From Sulfitobacter sp. OXR-159 (GTDB taxonomy: Bacteria > Pseudomonadota > Alphaproteobacteria > Rhodobacterales > Rhodobacteraceae): a DNA stretch of 64,000 nucleotides. Shown here piece after piece: positions 1,271 through 37,847 of this stretch (within the stretch, counting starts at the first letter, position 1; the number at the start of each line of letters is the position of its first letter). The notes beneath the pieces are model-generated. The model did not search any database, was not told the origin of the DNA, and was given only the letters and a program-made list of their open reading frames with translations. The translations under genes and the position numbers were made by a program. The stretch is taken from positions 2,117,001-2,181,000 of the forward strand of contig NZ_CP139707.1 of the NCBI RefSeq assembly GCF_034377145.1, read 5' to 3'.

Positions 1271-1483
1271 ATGGAACAGTTCATGGAAGAAGTGCGCGCC
1301 TATGCGGACGCGCTTGGGGTTCAGCCTTCGACAGTTGTGCAGCGCGCAGCGAAGCTCGGCGGTGCGGCGTGGGCAAAGTGGGAAGCGGGCGACGGATCGC
1401 CCACCCTGCGCACGGCGGATAAGATTTTGAAGTTCATCCGAGAGAACCCCGCCCCTACAGAACCCCTTAAGGAGGCCAGCTGA
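1271..1483 (+). CDS. Small Cro-like DNA-binding protein
   Basis: 70 residues. YADALGVQPSTVVQRAAKLG followed by WAKWEAGD and LRTADKILKFI resembles a compact helix-turn-helix like those in small phage Cro/antirepressor proteins. AAGAG lies six bases before the ATG. It is the first rightward gene after the operator pair and divergent from the repressor, which is the evidence for a Cro-type role. Its TGA overlaps the next start (TGATG), so the two are translationally coupled. Confidence 0.6.
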   Translation: MEQFMEEVRAYADALGVQPSTVVQRAAKLGGAAWAKWEAGDGSPTLRTADKILKFIRENPAPTEPLKEAS

Positions 1484-1671
1484 TGCGCGCCCTGATAAAC
1501 TCACTTCGCCACCACATCCGCTATGCGTTCGACGCGGATTACCGGATCGAGCGTATCGCGGACGCGGTAGAGCGGCGGCTTCAGCCCCAGATTGGAGCTG
1601 AAGTTCGTGGTGAACTCGATCGCGTCGCTGGTCGGGTCTCGGCCACCATCTCGGCAAGCTTTGCGAATTGA
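1483..1671 (+). CDS. Hypothetical phage protein
   Basis: 62 residues, predicted mostly helical, with a basic N-terminus (LINSLRHHIRYAF) and an amphipathic region (IERIADAVERRLQPQIGAEV). It starts at an ATG overlapping the previous stop, preceded by AAGGAGG. No family is recognised. Its coupling to the cro-like gene implies early, repressor-controlled expression. Confidence 0.55.
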   Translation: MRALINSLRHHIRYAFDADYRIERIADAVERRLQPQIGAEVRGELDRVAGRVSATISASFAN

Positions 1672-1674
1672 CCG

Positions 1675-1899
1675 TCAGGGGGATGTTATGATGCGAACCA
1701 ACCGTGCAAATTCCTCGGCCCGCACCGGTGTCGACGTGTCGCCACTTCCGATTGCATCTAGCCTTTCGACAAGTCGGTCTACCGTTCCGGGCGCTGCCGT
1801 TTCGAGCTCTCTTGCAATCATGCCGATTGCCTTCGAGTTTGCTTCCGCCCGCGCAGCGGTACGTTCCACGACTTCCCACAGCTTCATCGTCTCGGCCAT
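1675..1899 (-). CDS. Hypothetical helical phage protein
   Basis: 74 residues, highly helical (WEVVERTAARAEANSKAIGM), ending in VRIITSP. A good AAGGAAAG ribosome site lies four bases before the ATG. It converges on the preceding rightward gene with a three-base gap. Its amino-acid composition looks coding, whereas the frames on the other strand are Ser/Arg-rich and have no ribosome site. Function unknown. Confidence 0.5.
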   Translation of the reverse strand: MAETMKLWEVVERTAARAEANSKAIGMIARELETAAPGTVDRLVERLDAIGSGDTSTPVRAEEFARLVRIITSP

Positions 1900-2010
1900 C
1901 GTTCTTTCCTTTCAAGTGGTGGCTGAATTGGCGGAGCGGGCCGTGCTGGGCCTGTTCCGCCACCTTAATTGCGGCGTTGTTGCCAAACATGCAATCTGGG
2001 AGGCCAGCTG

Positions 2011-2106
2011 ATGCAGGGATATGCGCTTTGCGTTTCATGCCATAACCCTGCGCCGCTTTCCCGCGCGCGCACAGGAAACGAGGTTTCCCATGGTGTCGCG
2101 CAGTGA
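2011..2106 (+). CDS. Very small CxxCH-containing ORF
   Basis: 31 codons starting MQGYALCVSCHNP, preceded by a strong GGGAGG eight bases before the ATG. The CxxC could bind zinc; a single CxxCH in an unexported peptide is unlikely to be a haem site. The sequence GGAGGCCAGCTGATG before it is identical to the junction at 1471-1485, so the translation-start region is duplicated. Stop and a downstream GTG overlap (GTGA at 2103). It may be real or a remnant of the following zinc-ribbon frame. Confidence 0.3.
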   Translation: MQGYALCVSCHNPAPLSRARTGNEVSHGVAQ

Positions 2107-2189
2107 CTGAATATCCAGCAGGCATACGTCCAGATGATGGAAGCCGTGCCTTGTGGCTGTTGTTTAGCCATTTGCTAAATGGTTCGCCG

Positions 2190-2384
2190 ATGACCAACGC
2201 AGAGTGGTTTCAATTTTCTCAGCGATGGGAGGCCCTTTGCGCGCTTCGCTGCAATGCGTGCAGTGGTGCCGTGAACTGCTGCCCAAAGTGTTCTGATCAA
2301 GCTACATATATGCGCGGCATTCTTCGATCGGAAGTGGAAGCTGCAATCCAGCGCGGCCCGTCACCTGACTTGGTGGAGCTTTGA
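2190..2384 (+). CDS. Small Cys-rich (zinc-ribbon-like) phage protein
   Basis: 64 residues from the ATG: MTNAEWFQFSQRWEAL, then LRCNACSG...CCPKCSDQ, two CxxC knuckles typical of a small zinc ribbon, then a helical tail. No good ribosome site precedes this ATG. An in-frame GTG at 2103, overlapping the previous tiny frame, would give 93 residues. The 3' end overlaps the convergent gene by 24 bases. Function unknown; such small ribbons are common in phage early regions. Confidence 0.45.
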   Translation: MTNAEWFQFSQRWEALCALRCNACSGAVNCCPKCSDQATYMRGILRSEVEAAIQRGPSPDLVEL

Positions 2385-2633
2385 TATGCGCGATATGAGT
2401 TCATTTAACGCCACTTCGGTTGCATCATCCATATGGACTTGGCTTTGTGTCGCAATTCTGCGGCAGAGAGTGTCGAAGCTACCTGGCTTGATCTCATCCA
2501 GCAAGTCGCACGCGGTTCCAAAGGCGATAGCTAGTGCTGACATGTCCGATGGGATGAATTCCAGCACTTCAGATTGTATCTGCAGCTTTTTCTCCAACGC
2601 GGAAATGCGGCCTTCAAGCGTTTTATCCATCAT
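2361..2633 (-). CDS. Hypothetical phage protein
   Basis: 90 residues beginning MMDKTLEGRISALEKKLQIQ, a short coiled coil, followed by a helical domain (SALAIAFGTACDLLDEI). AAAGGAA lies six bases before the start. It is oriented against the surrounding early genes. Nothing identifies its function. Confidence 0.5.
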   Translation of the reverse strand: MMDKTLEGRISALEKKLQIQSEVLEFIPSDMSALAIAFGTACDLLDEIKPGSFDTLCRRIATQSQVHMDDATEVALNELISRISKLHQVR

Positions 2634-2701
2634 GTTGATTCCTTTGTTTTCGCAAGTTTCGAAAACCCTATTCGCTTCGCCTTCAGAAGGAGAGACTGGT
2701 A

Positions 2702-3151
2702 ATGCCTGACTTCCGCAAAATCGTCCGCGCGAACATGAAGTCTCTCGTGGATTGGTTTGGTTGCTATGACGCGGTTGCCGAAACCTTCAATGCCCGGTGG
2801 GGCGGCGGCGCAAGCAAGGGCACGATCAGCAAGAAGATTAGCGGCAATCTGGACTGGACGGTGGCCGACGTCATCGCGCTGGAAGACGCGGCAGGCCGCT
2901 ATCCCGTCACCCGCATGATGGCGCGGCGGCTGGAAAATCGGCCCGCTGCCGAAGGTGGTAGCTTGCTGATGGATGGATCCAGCATCGCCAAGGAAAGCGG
3001 GGAAGCGATATCGGCCATTCTGGCCGCAGAGCAGTCGACCTGCGCCGATGAATGCGCGCAAGCCATCAAGGAAGTCGATGACGCCATGTTCGCCCTGCGC
3101 CAAGCACGGGCGCGGCTGGAAAAGTCGATGGGGAACGGGGGTGCAGCGTGA
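2702..3151 (+). CDS. CII-like phage regulatory protein
   Basis: 149 residues. The N-terminal half (FRKIVRANMKSLVDWFGCYD, then GASKGTISKKISGNLDWTVA) resembles phage CII-type helix-turn-helix regulators, with an insertion helix KGTISKK as the likely recognition helix. The C-terminal half is helical and may oligomerise. AAGGAGAG precedes the ATG. It heads a chain of overlapping early genes: its TGA overlaps a GTG at 3148 opening a 23-codon frame that reaches into the next gene. Role in lysis/lysogeny or early transcription is inferred from the fold. Confidence 0.6.
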   Translation: MPDFRKIVRANMKSLVDWFGCYDAVAETFNARWGGGASKGTISKKISGNLDWTVADVIALEDAAGRYPVTRMMARRLENRPAAEGGSLLMDGSSIAKESGEAISAILAAEQSTCADECAQAIKEVDDAMFALRQARARLEKSMGNGGAA

Positions 3152-3208
3152 CTACACCGAGCTTGCCCGCGGCTGGTCTCCTTACGGCGAAACAGAAGAG
3201 CGTGCACC

Positions 3209-3718
3209 ATGGGGCATGACTTCCAGTTTCCCCGCGACCCTGACTGGGAATGGTTGAAGGCCAGCTATCCGAGCAACGTGCTGCTGCGGGCAGATTGTCA
3301 GTTTGTCGAGGCTGTAAGTCACCTCATCGGACGAATGGCCTACCTATCAACGCCCTACACCAAGGCCGTGGTCAACGATCAGATGGAGTGGGATCGCGGC
3401 ATGTCGTGTGACATCGAAGTGCGCACCGCTCGTTGGGTGCGTGCCTTTGCGATCGAAGGCATCACGGCCGTCTCGCCGATTCTACTTTCCTGCGCAGCCT
3501 GCCACGCGGACATCGAGGACCGGCTTGACCCTTTGGATGACGTGTTTTGGGCACGCTGGCGCCGCCCGCTGCTATCGGCCTCTGGCGCCGTGGTCATCCC
3601 GGCAATGGACGGCTGGGACGTGTCCCAGGGCGTTTGGCGAGACGCCTGTTGGGCGCTGCTGCACAACGTTCCCGTGCACCTCATCGCCAAAGGCTCTGAG
3701 TTTGGAGCTGATTTGTGA
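3209..3718 (+). CDS. DUF1937 family protein
   Basis: 169 residues. MAYLSTPYTKAV, followed by AIEGITAVSPI and a C-terminal VIPAMDGWDVSQGV with VPVHLI, is the pattern of DUF1937, a Rossmann-like family related to nucleoside 2-deoxyribosyltransferases and frequent in phage early regions. The N-terminal 35 residues precede the usual domain start. Substrate unknown; a role in nucleotide modification or degradation is possible but unproven. A weak GAAGAG precedes the ATG, and a short GTG-started frame upstream (3148-3219) may supply coupled ribosomes. The stop overlaps the methyltransferase start. Confidence 0.7.
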   Translation: MGHDFQFPRDPDWEWLKASYPSNVLLRADCQFVEAVSHLIGRMAYLSTPYTKAVVNDQMEWDRGMSCDIEVRTARWVRAFAIEGITAVSPILLSCAACHADIEDRLDPLDDVFWARWRRPLLSASGAVVIPAMDGWDVSQGVWRDACWALLHNVPVHLIAKGSEFGADL

Positions 3719-4425
3719 GTAGCGCGACGAGAGACGTGACGATCGGCAGATGCCGGTTGATCCTCGGTGATGCCCTGGATGTTCTGCCGAACCTTTCGGG
3801 GCAGGCAGACTTGGTGGTCACAGACCCGCCATACCGCTTGACGTCCGGAGGCAATCGCCCCGGAGCCATGGGCGGCAAGATGGCGGCAACCGTCTATGAC
3901 AACAGCGGGCTGCTTATGGATGTCGTGGACTGGGCCGATATCGGCGGCCCAATTTACCGCGCCCTCAAATCCGACGCGGACGCGTATGTCATGGCGGACG
4001 ATAAAAATCTGTTCGCAGCCCACGGGGGTTTCCTTGGCGCAGGGTTCAAATTCCACAGCCTGCTGACTTGGGACAAGATCACCCCCTCGCGCACCCGGTA
4101 CTATATGAAGGACAGTGAGTTCACGCTCTACCTCTGGAAGGGGGCGGCGCGCGACATCACGAACGGTGGTGACAAGCGCATCACGCGAATGGCGCGTCCG
4201 AAAGATGCAGTGCACCCAACACAAAAGCCGGTCGACCTGATGGCGCAGTACATCGGCAATTCCAGCCGCGAGGGCGATCTCGTACTCGATCCGTTCATGG
4301 GGTCCGGAACCACGCTGGTTGCTGCGGCTATGCTGGGTCGACGGGCCATCGGTATCGAAAAGAGCCCCGTGCACTTTGAGGCCGCATGCGCCCGCGTTTC
4401 GGCTGCTGTGAGGGAGGCTGCGTGA
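3715..4425 (+). CDS. Site-specific DNA methyltransferase (beta class)
   Basis: 236 residues. Catalytic motif IV DPPY lies at residues 37-40 and the AdoMet-binding motif DPFMGSGTT at 192-200, with HPTQKP between them. This IV-before-I order defines the beta class of N6-adenine or N4-cytosine methyltransferases. The GTG start overlaps the preceding stop (GTGA). No restriction enzyme is adjacent, so it is an orphan phage methylase that probably protects phage DNA or regulates replication/packaging. The target base and recognition sequence cannot be read from the sequence. Confidence 0.9.
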   Translation: MSSATRDVTIGRCRLILGDALDVLPNLSGQADLVVTDPPYRLTSGGNRPGAMGGKMAATVYDNSGLLMDVVDWADIGGPIYRALKSDADAYVMADDKNLFAAHGGFLGAGFKFHSLLTWDKITPSRTRYYMKDSEFTLYLWKGAARDITNGGDKRITRMARPKDAVHPTQKPVDLMAQYIGNSSREGDLVLDPFMGSGTTLVAAAMLGRRAIGIEKSPVHFEAACARVSAAVREAA

Positions 4426-4539
4426 TGGACGCCCAAATGCCCTCCAGCGCTCTGTTATGGCCCCGCATACTCAAGCCGCCTGCTCGACCTCCATGAGCTG
4501 AGTAAGAGGCGAAAAACAGGCCGCATAAGGCCTGAATAA
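4425..4539 (+). pseudogene. Possible frameshifted small phage gene
   Basis: The ATG overlapping the methyltransferase stop opens MDAQMPSSALLWP and stops after 23 codons. In the +1 frame the same stretch continues protein-like as YGPAYSSRLLDLHELSKRR to a stop at 4537-4539. Joining the frames near 4455-4460 gives one basic protein of about 37 residues without other stops. This may be a small gene broken by a one-base change, a shift site, or chance. No homologue is recognised. Confidence 0.25.
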
Positions 4540-4593
4540 CACACGATTGGCGCGGCGTTTTGCCGTGCCAACAGGCATGCGAGGGCGAAACGA

Positions 4594-5277
4594 GTGGATC
4601 CAATGCGCAAATACGACATCGAGCGGCCCCCCTTTGAGGGTGAACCGCGCGTGATCGCCCCTGAGGAGTGGCGACAGCAACGATGGGGTTGGATGGAAAG
4701 CGTGCGCCGCGACAGCAGCCTGAGCCCCATGGCGCGGCTTGTCGCCGACACCTTGGTGTTGGAGTTCGCCAACCGCGAAACCCATCGCTGCGATCCATCG
4801 CGCCGCCAGCTGGCCGACATACACGGCTGCTCGGAAGACACCATCAAGCGGGCCATCAGGGAACTGATTAAGGCTGAGTGGATCGTGATTCTGGCAGGCG
4901 TCGGCCGGGGGAAAAGCACCCAATACGGGTTCCTCACACGGGCCAAAATCGTGCACCTAAAAGGGGGTAAAAATGCACCCCTAAAAGGGGGTAGGAATGC
5001 CCCCTTTTGCGATTCCGAAAAGGGGGCAGATTTGCCCGGAAAAGGGGGTAAATCTGCATTGGTGCATAATATAGATAAACCACAGAAGAACCAAAGGGCG
5101 AAAGCGGGGAAGTTTTCCCCCAATCCGATGGTTCAGCGAGAGGCGAAAAACGCCGTCGCCAGACTGCGGGAGGGCCGCCCTGATGCCCTCGCCGATCTGC
5201 AGCCTTGGGTCATCGATCACATCATCGCTGCGAACCTGCTCACCGATGCCGAACAGGCAGCGGCGGGGCTGGGCTGA
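4594..5277 (+). CDS. Replication initiator (lambda O-like, winged helix)
   Basis: 227 residues. The region about 35-100 (SPMARLVADTLVLEF, SRRQLADIHGCSEDTIKRAI, ELIKAEWIVILAGVGRGKS, YGF) is a winged helix-turn-helix of the replication-protein-O/DnaD-like type. After it comes a stretch of short GK-rich repeats (KGGKNAP, KGGRNAP, GKGGKSA) encoded by tandem DNA repeats, then a helical C-terminus. Start GTG chosen for GAGGG eight bases upstream; an ATG three codons later lacks spacing. Phage initiators of this kind bind iterons inside their own gene, and such repeats are present here. The role is inferred from fold, repeats and position. Confidence 0.7.
   Translation: MDPMRKYDIERPPFEGEPRVIAPEEWRQQRWGWMESVRRDSSLSPMARLVADTLVLEFANRETHRCDPSRRQLADIHGCSEDTIKRAIRELIKAEWIVILAGVGRGKSTQYGFLTRAKIVHLKGGKNAPLKGGRNAPFCDSEKGADLPGKGGKSALVHNIDKPQKNQRAKAGKFSPNPMVQREAKNAVARLREGRPDALADLQPWVIDHIIAANLLTDAEQAAAGLG
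4957..5050 (+). other. Iteron-like repeats inside the initiator gene (candidate phage origin)
   Basis: AAAAGGGGG occurs four times in direct orientation (from 4959, 4983, 5018 and 5040) and once inverted (CCCCCTTTT within 5000-5008). The first two copies belong to 24-bp units that share CTAAAAGGGGGTA and an AATGC core. Lambda places its O-binding iterons inside gene O, and this arrangement is the same. An A/T-rich stretch (GCATAATATAGATAAACC, about 5063-5080) follows and could be the unwinding element. Confidence 0.6.
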
Positions 5278-19544: not shown

Positions 19545-20723
19545 ATGCCAACAACACTTCTAACAGACATTGCGGAAACAAAGATCACCGCTGCAGCAGG
19601 CACGGGATCGGCGGTCGCAATCACGCACGTTGCCCTGGGCGACGGGAATGGCTCGAATTATGCCCCGGGGCACGCCCAAACAGGCTTGCGCCGAGAAATG
19701 GCTCGGCAGCCGATTGCAACGCGACACATCGAAGGCGGGAATGCTTGGCGTGTTCGGGCTGAGTTCGGTCCCGAAACACCTGCCTTCGCTGTCCGTGAGA
19801 TGGGGTTCTTTGATGCTGACGGAGACCTCATTGCGGTTTGGGCAGGCAATGACGTGGAGCCCCGCCAGACTGGGGCCATAAGCTATCTGATCGATCACGT
19901 CCTCAGCTTCACACGTGTTGCGGACGGCCTCGTGATTGTGGAGGCTCCTGATGATGAGCTGGCGGAGGCTCGGGGCGACTTCAATCGTCTTGGGGCGCGG
20001 CTGGATGCGATGGATCAATACAGCCCTGCCGACCAGGTCGCTATGGCGGCAGGGGTGCAGCAGGCCATGAACCTCGGCGGAGTCTTGCTGCGAGAAATGG
20101 ATGTCATGCGGCGGCGCGTGCTGGCTCAGGGTGTCGCCCTTATTCGCCTCAAGCACGTCATTGCAGGCATGCAGCTGACCAAGAGCGAGGTCCGCACCCT
20201 GCACCTCTCCCAAACCGGCACAGTTGGCGCAGGCCTGTCCAAGGCAAAGCTAGACGGCCTTATCGTGGCCCTTCCCGATGATGACTATCACGTCTCGGTG
20301 CCCACAAATGAAACGGGATCGCCGGTTCAGTATTTTGCCTACCTAGTGAAGTCGGGTGGCGTGTATGGCGTCGATATTGGAGCTTCCGTTCCGGATGAGG
20401 CGCTCGCGCTCTATCGGATCGATATCCCGGCTGGGGATACCGCGAGCAACCTGAACGCTGTGACGCTCGTAGATTTGCGGGTCATTCAGGCGGAAAACGC
20501 ATGGACATCCGTCATTGAGCCATTCGCGGCCGTGGCATTTGCCGATGCGCTGCCATCGGCTGACTACATGGTGTCGGTCGAAATCGAAGATGCAACTAAC
20601 ATCGCAGCGGTCGGTGATGTGGTCATCTACGACAAGGCCAATAACGGCTTCAAAATTGGCCAAACCGGAAGCGCAGATAACGTGCGCATTCGCTGGACCG
20701 CGATCAACCCAAACTATCAATAA
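19545..20723 (+). CDS. Tail fibre protein (gpH-like N-terminal domain)
   Basis: 392 residues. The N-terminus (LTDIAETKITAAAGTGSAVA, ITHVALGDGNGSNYAP, FAVREMGFFDADGDLIAVW) is the tail-collar/DUF3751 domain that anchors P2-type fibres to the baseplate. The region 150-230 is helical. The C-terminal beta part ends GSADNVRIRWTAINPNYQ. No chaperone gene follows; instead a small gene and the DGR target come next, suggesting the adhesin tip is the DGR-diversified protein. Confidence 0.88.
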   Translation: MPTTLLTDIAETKITAAAGTGSAVAITHVALGDGNGSNYAPGHAQTGLRREMARQPIATRHIEGGNAWRVRAEFGPETPAFAVREMGFFDADGDLIAVWAGNDVEPRQTGAISYLIDHVLSFTRVADGLVIVEAPDDELAEARGDFNRLGARLDAMDQYSPADQVAMAAGVQQAMNLGGVLLREMDVMRRRVLAQGVALIRLKHVIAGMQLTKSEVRTLHLSQTGTVGAGLSKAKLDGLIVALPDDDYHVSVPTNETGSPVQYFAYLVKSGGVYGVDIGASVPDEALALYRIDIPAGDTASNLNAVTLVDLRVIQAENAWTSVIEPFAAVAFADALPSADYMVSVEIEDATNIAAVGDVVIYDKANNGFKIGQTGSADNVRIRWTAINPNYQ

Positions 20724-20737
20724 GAGGGGGTGGCTAA

Positions 20738-21091
20738 GTGAACGTCACGCACATGAACAAGGGCCCGAAGGTCGCCCATAGCCTCGAAGGCAGCATTCTG
20801 ACCATCGGCCAGAATATCGTTCTCGACCTCAATGAGGAGCAAGAGGACGTCGAGCGGGTGATCAGCCTGTTTGTCGACGATGAGGGTCAATTGCAGGAAA
20901 GCGGAAAGCGCTACGCCGCGGTGATCGTTGTCCCGCCCCGCCGCTACCTCGATGAGGAGGTCGACGATGTCGTGGACGGCGAAGAAGTCGTCCAAATCAT
21001 TCCGGTTGCCCAGCCCTGCCAGGTCGCCGCCGTAACCCTTCAGCTTTGGTCGATCGACGAAACTGCTGACCCTACCGAAAACGAGGAGTGA
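20738..21091 (+). CDS. Hypothetical protein between fibre and DGR target
   Basis: 117 residues. Start GTG chosen for GGGGGT seven bases upstream; an ATG five codons later is an alternative. It is very acidic (YLDEEVDDVVDGEEVVQIIP, ETADPTENEE) with beta-strand segments and no known motif. Six bases separate it from the DGR target gene. It could be an adaptor between fibre and target; that is inference from position only. Confidence 0.6.
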   Translation: MNVTHMNKGPKVAHSLEGSILTIGQNIVLDLNEEQEDVERVISLFVDDEGQLQESGKRYAAVIVVPPRRYLDEEVDDVVDGEEVVQIIPVAQPCQVAAVTLQLWSIDETADPTENEE

Positions 21092-21096
21092 CCTAG

Positions 21097-22176
21097 ATGT
21101 CCATTACAATTTCCACACCAGATGCGCTGCGGCAGTCCGTTGAGGCTGCCTCGGGTGGTGCCAACACGGTGCTGTATGATGCCAAGGGGTATCCTTCCGT
21201 CATGTGCATCGTGCCGCGCTTCAATATCGAGGACATCGATCCTGCCTTGGGGTCCGGAACTCACCCCGCGTTTGTCGTGAACGGCGTCCCAAAATCTGAA
21301 ATCTTCGTCGGCAAATTCCTGTCCCGCATTCACGATGGTCACGCCCTGTCATTGCCTGGGCAAGATCCATCTGCTGCAATCAACTTCGATACCGCCGACG
21401 CCCGCTGTACAGCTAAGGGCCCAGGCTGGCACATGATGACCAATGCAGAATGGTCGGCCGTCGCGCTCTGGTGCTGGAAGAACGGGTTCATGCCGCGTGG
21501 CAATACACAGTATGGCCGCGATCACGTTCAGCAATACGAAACCGGTCGGCGCCAAGACGGCGCAGCGCCGGGAGAAGCCTCGGGCACAGCGCGGACATTG
21601 ACCGGCTCAGGCCCGGCTAGCTGGTTCCATGACAATACCCCGGCAGGCATCGCCGATCTGACGGGTAACGTATGGGAATGGCAGCGCGGCATGCGGATGG
21701 TTGATGGCGAAATCCAGATCATCCCTGACAACGATGCCGCAGCAACCGATGCCGACCACTCGCCTGCGAGCGCGCTTTGGAAGGCGATCATGCCCAACGG
21801 ATCGCTGGTTGCGCCGGGCACAGCGGGGAGCTTGAAGTGGAATGCCACCGGCGCGGATGGCACCGGAAGCCCCGAGCTTGACACAGCTGTCACCAGCCAA
21901 TCGGACGGCACCACGAGCGCGTCCGCGATGTACAAGGATGTCGCAGCCGCGGCAGGCGTGACAGTTCCGAACCTTCTCAAGCTTCTCGGCCTGTTCCCGT
22001 ACGACGCGACCATTGAGCGCGGGCGGTTCTACATGCGCAACGAGGGGGAGCGTCTGCCGTTCCGTGGGGGCAACTGGCTCTACGGTGGCGGTGCCGGCTT
22101 GTTCGCCCTCAGCCTGAACGACCCGCGTTCGTACGTGCACACGAGCCTCGGTTTTCGGCCCGCTTTCGTAATCTGA
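21097..22176 (+). CDS. DGR target protein, C-type-lectin/FGE-sulfatase fold, predicted tail receptor-binding protein
   Basis: 359 residues. FVGKFLSRI, GWHMMTNAEWSAVALWCWKN and GNVWEW (190-195) belong to the formylglycine-generating-enzyme/C-type-lectin fold used by many DGR variable proteins. The C-terminus, codons 318-356, is the variable repeat: RLPFRGGNW, then variable positions 328, 329, 331, 332, 339, 342, 346, 348, 350 and 351 in a scaffold ending GFRPA. The protein ends three residues after VR. It follows the tail-fibre gene, so it probably displays a diversified binding surface on the tail. No enzymatic activity is expected. Confidence 0.93.
   Translation: MSITISTPDALRQSVEAASGGANTVLYDAKGYPSVMCIVPRFNIEDIDPALGSGTHPAFVVNGVPKSEIFVGKFLSRIHDGHALSLPGQDPSAAINFDTADARCTAKGPGWHMMTNAEWSAVALWCWKNGFMPRGNTQYGRDHVQQYETGRRQDGAAPGEASGTARTLTGSGPASWFHDNTPAGIADLTGNVWEWQRGMRMVDGEIQIIPDNDAAATDADHSPASALWKAIMPNGSLVAPGTAGSLKWNATGADGTGSPELDTAVTSQSDGTTSASAMYKDVAAAAGVTVPNLLKLLGLFPYDATIERGRFYMRNEGERLPFRGGNWLYGGGAGLFALSLNDPRSYVHTSLGFRPAFVI
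22048..22164 (+). repeat. DGR variable repeat (VR)
   Basis: 117 bp, in frame with the target gene and aligned without gaps to the template 558 bp downstream. It has 12 substitutions, all opposite template adenines. The adenine-free last 17 bases (TCGGTTTTCGGCCCGCT) are identical in both copies and should act as the initiation-of-mutagenic-homing segment. Similarity stops abruptly after 22164. Confidence 0.97.
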
Positions 22177-22203
22177 AATCGGACCACCTGAGTTCTGTTG
22201 GGT

Positions 22204-22219
22204 GCGGGCGATAGCCCGC
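22204..22219 (+). other. Hairpin with GATA tetraloop downstream of VR
   Basis: GCGGGC-GATA-GCCCGC: six perfect G/C pairs around a GRNA-type tetraloop, 39 bases after the VR. BPP-1 and related DGRs need a hairpin/cruciform with such a loop shortly downstream of the VR for target recognition. No T-run follows, so it is not a terminator. The spacing is longer than in BPP-1. Confidence 0.55.
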
Positions 22220-22250
22220 GCCTCGCTTTTGATCGCTGAAGGAGTTTGCG

Positions 22251-22607
22251 GTGGAAGACTTAAAAATCCGACGCAAATGCGAAGACATGATTGCGTATGG
22301 CTATGTCGTGTTGCCGCAATTTCCAAAATCAGAACGGCACGTTCTGAATCAGGAAATCCGCAACTCAATGTGGTCACTCCTTCGGTTAATCATCATCTGC
22401 AACAAGCGGTACTTTAAAAAGACCACGATGCAGGACTTGGACGCGGAGCTTGACCTGCTCCGCAGTCAGGTCCGGATGGCGCAAAGGCTCGGCTACTTGT
22501 CGTTTAAAAGCTACGAGGTGTGGAGCCGCCATCTTGATGAGATTGGCCGCATGGTTGGCGGTTGGTTCAAGAGCCTTCAGGAAAGGGGTGCAGGTAATGT
22601 GGCTTGA
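22251..22607 (+). CDS. avd: DGR accessory variability determinant (Avd)
   Basis: 118 residues, the usual Avd length. The protein is almost entirely helical and basic (MEDLKIRRKCEDMIAYGYVV, IRNSMWSLLRLIIICNKRYF, YLSFKSYEVWSRHLDEIGRM), fitting the four-helix-bundle, barrel-forming Avd that binds the reverse transcriptase and template RNA. The start is a GTG preceded by AAGGAG. Its TGA lies inside the first bases of the template repeat. Related families (23S rRNA intervening-sequence proteins) share the fold, but the DGR context decides. Confidence 0.92.
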   Translation: MEDLKIRRKCEDMIAYGYVVLPQFPKSERHVLNQEIRNSMWSLLRLIIICNKRYFKKTTMQDLDAELDLLRSQVRMAQRLGYLSFKSYEVWSRHLDEIGRMVGGWFKSLQERGAGNVA

Positions 22608-22722
22608 GCGTCTGCCGTTCCGTGGGGGCAACTGGAACAACGGTAGCAATGCCGGCTTGTTCGCCCTCAACCTGAACAACCCGCGTTCGAACGTGAACAC
22701 GAACATCGGTTTTCGGCCCGCT
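22606..22722 (+). repeat. DGR template repeat (TR)
   Basis: 117 bp, 24 adenines, many in AAC codons (AAC AAC, AGC AAT, AAC). This is the composition that lets adenine mutagenesis reach many amino acids without stop codons. It serves as non-coding RNA template for mutagenic cDNA. An ATG at 22598 would read the TR in the same frame as the VR (MWLERLPFRGGNW), so the TR could have come from an intact target-like gene end. Confidence 0.97.
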
Positions 22723-22890
22723 CTCGGGAAATGCCAGAAGTTGCAGCCCTAACGGGGCTTCATCCAGAGCACCCTCGAAAGGACCCGCACTCCTCGGCCA
22801 AGTGCCGAAAGATATAAACAGGCCGGGGTGGGATAGTATCCAATCCTAGGTGGAGACCCCTCGCCCTGGCCGACTTTGGAAATACAAGAA
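22723..22890 (+). ncRNA. TR-RT spacer, part of the DGR RNA
   Basis: 168 bases between TR and the reverse transcriptase without a coding frame. In BPP-1 the corresponding spacer of about 140 bases is part of the TR RNA, binds RT-Avd and primes cDNA synthesis. Here it contains GC-rich inverted segments (for example GGCCGGGGT near 22824). The boundaries are inferred from the neighbours. Confidence 0.55.
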
Positions 22891-23961
22891 ATGGCAAAAA
22901 CGTACTCCGGCCTGTTCGAAGGCTTCACCACCTTCGAAGCGCTGCATCGGGCATATGGGAGGGTCGTGAAAGGACGCAGGCATCAGCTGGATGTCATCCG
23001 GTTCGAGACTGACTTGGAAGCAAACCTCATCAACATCCAGAACAGCCTACTATGGAAGACCTATAAGACCGGCCCCTACAGAAACTTTAAGGTCTTTGAG
23101 CCGAAGGAGCGGGATATTTCAGCCCTTCCGATAAAGGACCGCATTGTTCAACACGCGCTGGTGGAGGCGATCGACCCGATTTGGTCCAGTCGGTTTATTC
23201 ATGACACCTACGCATGCAGGCCTGGCAAAGGCGCGCACGCCGGTGCAGATCGGGCGCAGTTGTTTTTGCGTCAAACCCTGCAGGAAAGTGATGTGATCTA
23301 TGTTTTGAAAGCTGACATCGCCAAATACTTCCCATCGATTTGCCATGATGTGCTGAAGCGCCTGCTGCGCAAGCGCATCGCCTGCAAGGATACCCTGTGG
23401 GTCATCGACAATATCATCGACAGCACCCTTGAGCCGGGCGATCCCTTGCCTCGGGGCATCCCGATCGGCAACCTGACGTCGCAGCTCTTCGCGAACATCT
23501 ACCTTCATGAACTCGATGAGTTTGTGAAGTTCGACCTTCGAGAAAGCCGCTATCTGCGGTACATGGATGACTTTGCGATTGTTGGAAGCAACAAGGCCCA
23601 TCTGCACGCGGTGCGGCAGGACATCGAGAATTTCCTGCATGCGCGTCTCGGCCTGCGCTGCAATCACAAGACACAGATTTTTCCGGTGTCACTCACGAAT
23701 GGCCGCGCCCTAGACTTCCTCGGGTACCGTATCTGGCCGACGCATCGCAAAATCCGAAAGGATAGCGCGTGTAGGATGCGCAAAAAGATGAAGCGCATGG
23801 CGCGGCATTATCACGAAGGCAAGATCAGCCTGAAAGATGTCGACAAGGTCATCATGAGTTGGATCGGCCACGCGGGACACGCAAACACTTATCGCCTGCG
23901 GACACGCGTCCTTGGCGATGTCCCATTCATCCCACCCCCGCTTCTGCGCGACAGGAAGTAA
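22891..23961 (+). CDS. rt: DGR reverse transcriptase
   Basis: 356 residues from ATG 22891 (GGA 11 bases upstream); a TTG five codons earlier is an alternative. Catalytic aspartates are Asp142 (KADIAKYFPSI) and Asp226/Asp227 in YMDD (224-227). IGNLTSQ at 192-198 replaces the QGxxxSP of retroviral and group II enzymes, which is typical of DGR RTs and linked to low fidelity at adenines. FLGYR (276-280) begins the thumb boundary. No maturase or endonuclease domain is present. It copies TR RNA into adenine-mutated cDNA that replaces the VR. Confidence 0.97.
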   Translation: MAKTYSGLFEGFTTFEALHRAYGRVVKGRRHQLDVIRFETDLEANLINIQNSLLWKTYKTGPYRNFKVFEPKERDISALPIKDRIVQHALVEAIDPIWSSRFIHDTYACRPGKGAHAGADRAQLFLRQTLQESDVIYVLKADIAKYFPSICHDVLKRLLRKRIACKDTLWVIDNIIDSTLEPGDPLPRGIPIGNLTSQLFANIYLHELDEFVKFDLRESRYLRYMDDFAIVGSNKAHLHAVRQDIENFLHARLGLRCNHKTQIFPVSLTNGRALDFLGYRIWPTHRKIRKDSACRMRKKMKRMARHYHEGKISLKDVDKVIMSWIGHAGHANTYRLRTRVLGDVPFIPPPLLRDRK

Positions 23962-24166: not shown

Positions 24167-24183
24167 TGTCAGAGGAGACGAAG

Positions 24184-25362
24184 ATGAGCTTTCTTAGCTT
24201 CCACCACGGCACCCGCCTTCAGGAGTCCAATGAGACCCCGGTTTTGGTGCAGGTGGCACAAACTGCTGTTGTAGGCCTCATGGGCACCGCCCCTGATGCT
24301 GACCCGGCGAAATTCCCGATCAACACTCCCGTGCTGCTAAAAGGCAACCCCGCGGCGGCGGCTGACCTTGGCACGGCGGGCACGCTCAAAGACGCCGTCG
24401 ACGATGTGTTCGACCAGATCGGTGCTTACACCATCGTGATCCGTGTCGAGGAGGGTCTCGATGAGGCCGCGACGATGACCAACTTGGTGGGCGATGCAAC
24501 GCAGCTTACCGGCGTCCACGCACTGAAAAAGGCGGAAGCTCAGCTGGGCATCAAGCCGCGGCTGATCGCTATCCCGGGCTTCACCAGTGGCGACGGCGTG
24601 ACCGCAAACCCCGTGGTAGCCGAGCTGGTCGGCGTCCTGGACCAGCTGAAGGCTGTCGCGTTCGTCGATGGGCCCGACACCACTGATGAGGATGCTCTCG
24701 CCTATCGCGAACTGATTGGCTCGCAGCGGGTCTATGTGGTCGATCCGAAAGTTCTCGTTTGGGATGCAGAGGCCGACGCATATGCGGCGCGGCCTGCGTC
24801 TGCGCGGTTTGCCGGTGTCCAGGCGCGCGTGGATACCAATCTTGGCTTCTGGCACTCGCTGTCGAACAAGAACATCAACGGGATCGGCGGTGCATCTCGC
24901 ACAGTGACCTACGGCCTGCAGGCTGACTACCTCAACGAAAACCATGTCGGCACCATCATCAATATGGGGTCGGGCTTCATCACTTGGGGCAACCGCGCGG
25001 CGACGGAAGATGATCTGTGGGTATTCCTGTCGGTGCGCCGGACAGCGGACTTCATCAATGAGGCCATCGAGAAGGCGTATCTGGAATTCGTGGACAAGCC
25101 GTTCTCGGCCGCGAACCTGAAGTTCATGCTGGAAAGCGGCAACGCCGCCATGCGGACCTTCAAGGCTTCGGGCGCCATTCTGGGGGGTCGCGTTTGGATT
25201 GACGAAACCCTGAACGAGCCAACTGAAATGGCGGCGGGTAAAATCACGCTCTCCATGGAGTTCGAGCCGCCCGCGCCGATGGAGGACATCCGCTTCATCG
25301 CTCACCGCAACATCCAGTATTACCTGGAACTGACCAAAGAGGCGCTGAAGGCGGCAGCATAA
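24184..25362 (+). CDS. Tail sheath protein (FI)
   Basis: 392 residues, P2 FI size. FHHGTRLQESNETPVLVQVA is the N-terminal family signature; VVGLMGTAPDAD, NINGIGGASRTVTYGLQADY and ESGNAAMRTFKASGAILGGR are further conserved stretches. It polymerises around the tube and contracts on infection. I chose the ATG at 24184 for GAGGAG seven bases upstream; an upstream in-frame ATG overlaps the terminator hairpin. Confidence 0.96.
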   Translation: MSFLSFHHGTRLQESNETPVLVQVAQTAVVGLMGTAPDADPAKFPINTPVLLKGNPAAAADLGTAGTLKDAVDDVFDQIGAYTIVIRVEEGLDEAATMTNLVGDATQLTGVHALKKAEAQLGIKPRLIAIPGFTSGDGVTANPVVAELVGVLDQLKAVAFVDGPDTTDEDALAYRELIGSQRVYVVDPKVLVWDAEADAYAARPASARFAGVQARVDTNLGFWHSLSNKNINGIGGASRTVTYGLQADYLNENHVGTIINMGSGFITWGNRAATEDDLWVFLSVRRTADFINEAIEKAYLEFVDKPFSAANLKFMLESGNAAMRTFKASGAILGGRVWIDETLNEPTEMAAGKITLSMEFEPPAPMEDIRFIAHRNIQYYLELTKEALKAAA

Positions 25363-35988: not shown

Positions 35989-36873
35989 TTAAGCGCGATG
36001 GCTTGGCAGACCATCACCTTCCCATCCATGTGGCATCAGGAAGCCAGCCGCGCGGCGGTGGCCGCCCCCGCCATAGGCTGCGGCGATCTGCGAAACGTCT
36101 AGGCCGTCGCCGCGCGATCGAAGTGAGAACGCCCGGCCCTTCGGCCCGTCGACATAAGTCGCAGCGAAGGGCTCACCCTCGGCCATTGTGCCGGCCGTGT
36201 CCGATGCGAGAGCGTATGGCGCGGCGGCGACAGGAACCTCATGGCCGCCGATCACCATACGGCGTTTCGAGACATCGATTACCTGACGCACCAGTTTGTC
36301 GTGCGCGCGCAGAATGGCCCCGCCCTCAGCAGCAACGCGGCCGATGTCGGCGTCTGCCTGGAGCCGCGCCGCTAGATCGTGCCATGTATCCCATGTCATC
36401 TCGTGCGATCCGATGACCGCGTTTATCTCTCGCGACTGGTCTATGCTCCAGCGCCACAGATCGCGGTCGGCCACGACATCGACCAGGAAGGGGCGCGCGC
36501 CCTGGTGGAAGTAGTCCCACGCCATCTGCGCACCGCTCCGATCCATATCGAAGAGCGCGGCGGGGTTTCCGGCAGCCGCCCGATGTGCGTCCCATCCCCC
36601 GGCTGGGCGCGGCAGGTTGATCAGGTCATCCCTCGCAGTCTTGTGGTGGTCGAGAACGATAATTGAACGAGCTGTGTGGGCCATGCGCTCAAGGACAGGG
36701 CGCTTATAGCTAAAGTCGACGATTATGACGTCAGCGCCTGTCACGCCTGGCGGCTCATCGCCATATCCAGCGGGGATATACTCCACCGTTTCGCCAAGGG
36801 CCTCACGTACCGCCCATGCGGCGGTGAACCCGTCGGCGCAGTTTGCGTGGTAGATACAGATAGTTCGGGTCAT
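35989..36873 (-). CDS. DHH-family phosphoesterase
   Basis: 294 residues. Motif I YHANCADGFTAAW, motif II VDFSYKR, motif III LDHHKTA and the C-terminal DHHA1 GGGGHRRAAGF are all present, so the Mn-dependent active site is intact. The family includes RecJ-like nucleases, NrnA-type oligoribonucleases and cyclic-dinucleotide phosphodiesterases. The absence of a RecJ OB domain and the length of about 300 suggest a small-nucleotide hydrolase. In a phage it could degrade signalling nucleotides or nanoRNA; that is inference. Confidence 0.87.
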   Translation of the reverse strand: MTRTICIYHANCADGFTAAWAVREALGETVEYIPAGYGDEPPGVTGADVIIVDFSYKRPVLERMAHTARSIIVLDHHKTARDDLINLPRPAGGWDAHRAAAGNPAALFDMDRSGAQMAWDYFHQGARPFLVDVVADRDLWRWSIDQSREINAVIGSHEMTWDTWHDLAARLQADADIGRVAAEGGAILRAHDKLVRQVIDVSKRRMVIGGHEVPVAAAPYALASDTAGTMAEGEPFAATYVDGPKGRAFSLRSRGDGLDVSQIAAAYGGGGHRRAAGFLMPHGWEGDGLPSHRA

Positions 36874-37533: not shown

Positions 37534-37847
37534 GGGGTCTCCTGCGGCCGAAAAGCGTGTATTTTCCTGTGGGGAGTCCTGATTTTTCGTGGTCCACCCT
37601 CATTGTAAGTGATTGAAATATATAAGGCCCGACAGGCTTCGCGCGTGGTCCACATGCCCTATAAAAATAAGAGAAAAACGGCGCTAATTGTTGACCGTGT
37701 GGGGGCACCACTTTTCCCGCCAGATGAAACACTTATCCTCACGCTGATCCGATACCTGCCGCCCGCGGTTTACGGATGCCTGTGCGCATTGCTCGCCCCC
37801 AAGGCCCCGCGATCACACCAGTTTCGGCGAACGCGGGGCCGTGGCGC
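37534..37847. other. Non-coding right junction of the prophage
   Basis: No convincing gene. CGTGGTCCAC occurs twice (37588-37597 and 37644-37653), 56 bp apart, around an A/T-rich stretch. The host-side part contains a long inverted repeat GGCCCCGC/GCGGGGCC (37803-37840) just after purU. The attachment site probably lies here, but the left copy needed to prove it is outside the window. Confidence 0.4.

Follow-up and report, generated by a model that had tools for sequence, protein, structure and literature searches.

Introduction

Diversity-generating retroelements (DGRs) number over 30,000 in one survey, which reports variable repeats (VRs) in C-terminal lectin folds as the rule (PMC8144416). 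Here we analyse a phage-type DGR in a prophage of Sulfitobacter sp. OXR-159, within a 64,000-nucleotide stretch of its genome (NZ_CP139707.1, positions 2,117,001 to 2,181,000 of the forward strand) that we call the window; coordinates below are counted from its first letter and refer to its plus strand unless stated otherwise. The DGR comprises a target gene that carries the VR, a gene for the accessory variability determinant (Avd), a template repeat (TR) and a reverse transcriptase (RT) gene. DGRs of this kind are well known; what is new here is the host group, the mapped folds and the travel of the parts. Our literature search on DGRs in roseobacters and Rhodobacteraceae prophages found no such system described for this host group, and a term search of Sulfitobacter prophage literature found no retroelement named in the text portions returned, in which an RT is mentioned in a genomic island of S. 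faviae.

Several described systems resemble that in the window. In the Vibrio phage VP58.5 (Vhmlvirus) a target 43% identical over its full length is followed by Avd, TR and RT; all 12 of its VR differences lie at TR adenines, a hairpin with a GGTA loop stands 33 nt past the VR, and its TR-RT spacer is found by our covariance model R1 (below). The target of VHML is also 43% identical. Both phages differ from the window in their Vibrio hosts and in an RT of 49% identity, and neither the fibre nor the 117-aa protein of the window has a match in the stretch of VP58.5 examined. The P2-like Pseudoalteromonas phages ACA1 and ACA2 share the target family (38% identity), Avd, RT and a GATA-loop hairpin (PMC10612066), and 15 of their 17 VR differences lie at TR adenines. 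According to the passages that describe them, their isolates differ mainly in the VR, to which the absence of cross-infection is likely credited; unlike in the window, the RT open reading frame takes in the TR and integration is in dusA rather than tRNA-Thr (PMC10612066). A crystal structure exists for TaqVP, the variable protein encoded by a DGR in a Thermus aquaticus prophage; its lectin fold is of the FGE subtype (PDB 5VF4, PMC6328139). TaqVP is a full-length homologue of the window target with the same fold and a VR at the same C-terminal place, although it comes from a thermophile prophage and is 52-53% identical. BPP-1 shares the order target, Avd, TR and RT, adenine mutagenesis, a hairpin after the VR and a homologous RT (39%), whereas its target Mtd is weakly related in fold, its Avd is 22% identical and its spacer RNA is Phage_DGR (RF03022). 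The published relatives VHML/VP58.5, ACA1/2 and TaqVP make the window DGR less novel; we regard it as a well-formed example rather than a surprise, with the spacer RNA and a shared gene block as parts for specialists.

The cassette and its repeat pair

The cassette occupies 21097-23961 in the order target, Avd, TR and RT, within a tail operon that runs fibre, 117-aa protein, target, Avd, TR, RT and sheath. An earlier note on this stretch had proposed that a prophage tail operon holds a complete DGR; its coordinates are correct, and the proposal is backed by sequence, model and comparative evidence. Aligned with each other, the VR (22048-22164, target codons 318-356) and the TR (22606-22722, whose start overlaps the Avd stop codon) lie 558 bp apart and correspond over 117 bp without gaps. 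They differ at 12 positions, all 12 among the 24 TR adenines, and none of the 93 non-adenine TR positions is changed (hypergeometric p=3.5e-10). The note had given the same alignment figures, which recomputation reproduced, and had counted ten varying target codons, as did our recount (328, 329, 331, 332, 339, 342, 346, 348, 350 and 351). The earliest non-adenine mismatch stands at 22165 (TR C, VR T), immediately beyond the 117 bp, and homology fades a few bases further on. Past adenine-specific transfer from TR to VR has taken place at this locus. Fourteen VR codons are mutable, ten of them AAC or AAT; every one of the 24 TR adenines falls at codon position 1 or 2, and no stop codon can be reached. 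When queried against the whole genome (4.42 Mb, 8 contigs), the TR matched itself and one VR at E<=0.001, with no further or remote VR.

The two proteins of the retroelement are readily assigned. Avd (22251-22607, 118 aa) matches PF22296 (E 9.8e-34) and phrog_3206, 'Avd protein of DGR' (E 1.3e-44). IGxxxSQ is the mark of DGR RTs; the RT here (22891-23961, 356 aa) carries IPIGNLTSQ together with YMDD. Its matches are PF00078 (E 2.1e-17), phrog_1423 (E 5.2e-139) and the BPP-1 bRT structure PDB 8UB7 (E 1e-65), which place it in the DGR group. With TR/VR differences at TR adenines, an Avd gene beside the RT gene and a lectin-fold target whose VR is C-terminal, the locus as a whole is best explained as a complete canonical phage DGR that very probably varies a tail-associated protein. 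Relatives of the RT were gathered at 25 loci, six from species genomes and 19 from viral contigs, in addition to the window; such loci are labelled L below, and genomes G.

A hairpin follows the VR. Retrohoming of BPP-1 requires one at this place, and the phage hairpins listed in the same account have GC-rich stems and GRNA loops and lie 4 to 34 bp from the VR (Guo et al., PMC3240598). The window has a hairpin- or cruciform-forming inverted repeat at 22201-22222, with a perfect core GCGGGC-GATA-GCCCGC (22204-22219), whose GATA loop fits GRNA, and outer pairs that include one T.G; the distance from VR to extended stem is 32-36 nt depending on the choice of VR end, at or slightly past the published range. 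Among 20000 base shuffles of the 100 bases 3' of the VR, 12 gave such a hairpin, and such stems occur across the 64 kb twice on the plus strand and once on the minus strand. Among 19 loci, some of which are near-duplicates, 16 carry a GANA loop on a perfectly paired stem of 6 bp or more, and in L005, L022 and L024 one pair of this hairpin is imperfect; at three of the six core pairs both partners have changed. A similar script recovers the known BPP-1 hairpin as well as those of VP58.5 (GGTA) and ACA1 (GATA).

Turnover of the variable repeat among relatives

A TR/VR pair is seen in 25 of the 26 loci, the exception being L018, whose contig starts within the cassette; five pairs repeat others, which leaves 20 distinct pairs. 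These hold 242 TR/VR differences, 227 of them at TR adenines (463 adenines). The exact 24-base TR pattern of the window has no match in the viral contigs. Comparison of VRs across relatives, which the earlier note had named as a check, was run on three groups that share a TR and differ in VR (L004/L006/L019, L007/L027/L028 and L030-L033); summed over their 12 pairs, 169 of 185 VR-VR differences lie at TR adenines. Genome background was counted for three near-identical pairs, the remaining pairs being more diverged (e.g., L033, 97-99% in its main pieces, and L004/L006, 97%). Between L030 and L031, 15 of 21 mismatches over 19.2 kb fall inside the VR (408 times the outside rate); the corresponding figures are 14 of 30 over 17.9 kb for L030/L032 (133 times) and 14 of 29 over 8.3 kb for L007/L028 (66 times). 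The VR is a mutation hotspot between near-identical relatives and has turned over repeatedly. The nearest relative of the window target, P0121, which is represented as a protein only, differs at 16 residues, and all 12 of its VR residue changes are attainable from the window TR through adenine changes alone. The RT itself is under purifying selection, with dN/dS of 0.025-0.057 against L003, L026, L004 and L020 and 0.153 against L007, dS being near saturation; against L030, dS is saturated.

Several observations weigh against a complete DGR that varies a tail-associated protein. The window prophage is represented by one copy, with natural variants of relatives as the sole comparison for activity. 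Fifteen of the 242 TR/VR differences fall at the 1877 non-adenine positions, among them several T-to-G changes at position 14, and 16 of the 185 VR-VR differences lie off TR adenines. The RT frame of L006 (the record of L040) has a stop at codon 55, so such cassettes also decay. The window spacer RNA scores 38.8 bits against the Rfam family RT-14 (RF02921), under the gathering cut-off of 48.1 bits. Mass spectrometry, as reported for ACA1, detected the homologue of the target, but in the prophage's version and in a surprising amount (PMC10612066).

Part of this evidence would suit a DGR that worked formerly and is now silent in the lysogen, with its parts intact and its VR static: the window prophage is known in one copy, the corresponding site in the same-species genome G026 is empty, and L006 has the same kind of cassette with an early RT stop. 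We consider this rather unlikely, however, given that RT, Avd, TR, spacer helices and hairpin are all intact, that the RT is kept by purifying selection, and that P0121 differs in 12 of 39 VR codons against 4 changes in the other 320 residues. The DGR copy in the window is probably still active.

Two side observations concern the repeats. Despite the RT stop in L006, its TR/VR differences are still mainly at adenines (13 of 15). Changed TR adenines that precede C read as G 58, T 22 and C 5 times across the 20 pairs, and as G 5, T 9 and C 4 times in the three distinct natural VRs of BPP-1, whose enzyme is reported to favour change reading as C at such adenines (PMC12875486). This contrast could stem from the enzyme or from selection; we claim no difference in the enzyme because natural VRs have passed through selection and BPP-1 contributes three distinct VRs.

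The target protein and its probable display on the tail

The target (21097-22176, 359 aa) belongs to the TaqVP family, with an FGE-type C-type lectin fold. It matches TaqVP (PDB 5VF4) by phmmer over residues 3-359 (E 1.9e-112), with the VR inside the alignment. Its AF2 model (44 sequences) has a mean pLDDT of 91, and Foldseek places 5VF4 at ranks 1-3 with TM 0.93-0.94; the next solved matches, all weak, include FGE-like proteins and two DGR proteins, TvpA and Mtd. The lectin fold that the earlier note had predicted is thus borne out by a confident model that matches TaqVP. The fibre next to which the note had placed the target is a tail-collar fibre of 392 aa (19545-20723; PF12571, E 1.5e-17, and tail-fibre PHROGs), and the two are separated by a single gene. 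That gene encodes the 117-aa protein (20738-21091, phrog_8734), which has a mostly beta model and gave nothing at E under 0.001 in a fold search; it is a candidate adaptor or chaperone. Downstream of the cassette, the next tail-operon gene encodes a contractile tail sheath (24175-25362; PF04984; phrog_23, E 9.1e-95). Gene position and homologues suggest that the target is present in the virion, where it may bind a host receptor.

The sole Pfam match of the target is FGE-sulfatase (PF03781), which could be taken to mean that the DGR diversifies an enzyme or a host-function protein and no tail adhesin. We give this little credence: the lone match is accounted for by the FGE subtype of the TaqVP lectin fold, the target matches TaqVP over its full length, its gene lies between fibre and sheath, and the ACA1 homologue is annotated and, where it is treated in the published account, discussed as an antireceptor (PMC10612066). 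Finally, duplicates like these, merely 558 bp apart, do occur, but an ordinary drifted copy without retroelement activity is ruled out by the adenine bias (p=3.5e-10 in the window and 227/242 in the 20 pairs, which drift without adenine preference would not give) and by the VR hotspot, as drift would not crowd 15 of 21 mismatches of 19.2 kb into 117 bp.

A structured RNA between template repeat and reverse transcriptase

Between the TR and the RT gene of a complete DGR in the window lies a structured spacer RNA (22723-22871) with five helices, which was delineated from a 16-sequence alignment and resembles RT-14 below its cut-off. This spacer is a covarying RNA: 97.7% of cells are paired and 12 of 32 pairs have changed on both sides, values that none of 500 shuffles reached; the number of further pair types was matched by 13 of 500 shuffles, and shifting the partner by 1 to 3 columns lowered pairing to 38-52%. 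The structure was derived from the same alignment, which favours it, and searches beyond the training set provide the better test. Covariance model R1 finds a single place in the window's genome, which is also the one hit among 289 genomes of the class under stricter filtering. L040 (the L006 record), L041 (the L007 record) and L018 (99.8% L026) were left out of the test because all are training sequences. BPP-1 aside, nine named DGR loci of phages or plasmids were searched, and R1 finds eight of them, namely VP58.5, ACA1, L054, L055, L056, L057, L059 (twice) and L060, with weak scores for L055 (22 bits) and L057 (20 bits); it has no match in BalMu-1 (L058) or BPP-1 (L042). The places found lie between a TR and the start of an RT gene; in the second L059 unit it is the RT side that is seen. 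R1 thereby supplies a structure-based finder of DGR template RNAs. L059, an Ideonella dechloratans plasmid, carries two tandem Avd-RT units at 1388-4787, with an R1 spacer ahead of each RT.

The Rfam name RT-14 reflects only closeness to reverse transcriptases. The match of the window spacer spans the family's full length (1-144; E 0.00044), and in the whole genome RT-14 gave no match at E<=0.001. Its cut-off is reached in four distinct cassettes: the L003 genome (50.8 bits), G443, the L007 record (48.1), L026 with its near-copy L018 (50.6) and BalMu-1 (70.4), in which the match sits between TR end 1839 and RT start 1992. Scores fall under the cut-off in the L008 genome (47.7), the L005 genome (45.2) and ACA1 (41.9). 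There is no match in G377 (the L006 record) or L040, nor, at E<=0.05, in L046, L054, L055, L056, L057, L059 and L060 (seven of the nine loci), all of which R1 finds. Every RT-14 match lies in the TR-RT spacer, and no second match occurs in the four matching whole genomes. None of 398 phylum genomes matched RF02921, a result that says nothing on rarity because the window's own genome also stayed silent; the scope of these searches is DGR loci and this silent phylum sample, and RT-14 copies away from DGRs could have escaped. Phage_DGR has no match in the window, with BPP-1 as the positive control (104.7). In different DGRs, the same TR-RT slot houses two Rfam families, Phage_DGR at L042 2361-2493 and RT-14, below cut-off, at window 22721-22869. 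RT-14 is probably a DGR spacer RNA, and this Rfam family, whose name comes from its neighbour, thereby acquires a likely function; our literature search on RT-14 found nothing relevant.

Proposed mechanism

By analogy with BPP-1, RT and Avd would attach, through the structured spacer RNA, to a transcript comprising the end of Avd, the TR and the spacer. The RT would then copy the TR into cDNA with errors opposite adenines, and this cDNA would replace the VR in the target gene, the hairpin after the VR marking the recipient. The TaqVP-like tail-associated product would probably be carried at the fibre tip, where exposed C-terminal residues could vary on a fixed scaffold, such that particles would differ in binding ability.

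A gene block shared between phages

Twelve window genes were compared across the relatives' contigs, several of which are short or end soon after the RT, so that genes missing from them may lie beyond the contig ends. L003 and L026 match the window over head and tail genes, with the sheath at 92-94% and the RT at 87-89% identity. In L007 and L008 the target (73-74%) and RT (70-71%) are well conserved and the sheath is just 46-47% identical. In L004, L006, L019, L020, L022 and L025 the match runs from fibre residue 137 as far as the RT, with one further, weak match in a baseplate gene (32-34%); fibre residues 137-392 are accordingly common to otherwise different phages. In L005, which extends 10 kb to either side, the match begins at fibre residue 195 and ends with the RT; what it has instead is a central fibre J of the lambda type. 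Close similarity in L024 is confined to Avd, RT and the VR-bearing end of the target (sheath 43%), and matches in L030-L033 are limited to the target (42-43%), Avd and RT. The firmer evidence comes from L005 and L007. That the sheath is conserved better than the RT in one group and far worse in the other is not easily squared with simple descent, and we read the pattern as a block, from fibre tip to RT, exchanged between otherwise different phages. The shared block also hints that the target sits on the fibre tip, and it suggests that the DGR travels with its display platform and not as an RT alone.

These strands can be joined in one proposal, for and against which we find the case evenly balanced: that RT-14 would be the spacer that recruits RT and Avd in many phage DGRs, as the counterpart of the BPP-1 Phage_DGR RNA, and that the fibre tip, 117-aa protein, target, Avd, TR, spacer and RT would form a display-and-diversify module that moves as a block between contractile and lambda-like phages in Rhodobacterales.

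Prophage and host

The prophage measures 46,254 bp (right core included, left core excluded), starts 8.5 kb ahead of the window and is inserted in a tRNA-Thr (TGT) gene. Its attR (37695-37710), a 16-bp repeat of the tRNA-Thr 3' end, was placed by comparison with the empty site in G026 (88% complete), in which homology ends at the tRNA-Thr end and restarts at window 37695 with the flanks joined. The prophage carries an integrase beside the tRNA, a repressor-like gene, and genes for replication initiation, terminase, portal, protease, major head protein, baseplate, sheath, tape measure and endolysin; with its att repeats, integrase, head, tail and lysis genes it appears, on sequence evidence, to be an intact temperate prophage. 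As a marine, non-gut system with apparently intact prophage parts, an empty site and mapped cis elements, it would make adhesin diversification measurable.

The marine roseobacter hosts that the earlier note had supposed are supported by a host P-type ATPase: among its best 120 matches, the best named one is Sulfitobacter faviae (90%), and most of the closest named ones are Sulfitobacter; a 99% match without a source label is probably the cluster to which the window protein itself belongs. The six named hosts that carry RT relatives presumably all belong to Rhodobacterales. G026 has no match to the RT. Within the genus, 7 of 62 genomes match it, namely its own and six with weak partial RTs; the seven weak matches in these six genomes (partial, 27-32% identity) were not counted as DGRs. 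In the family sample, RT matches at E<=1e-50 occur in 3 of 394 genomes, the window's own and the records of L006 and L007. Near attR, a gene of the DHH phosphoesterase family lies on the minus strand at 35989-36873 (phrog_4771, E 2e-95).

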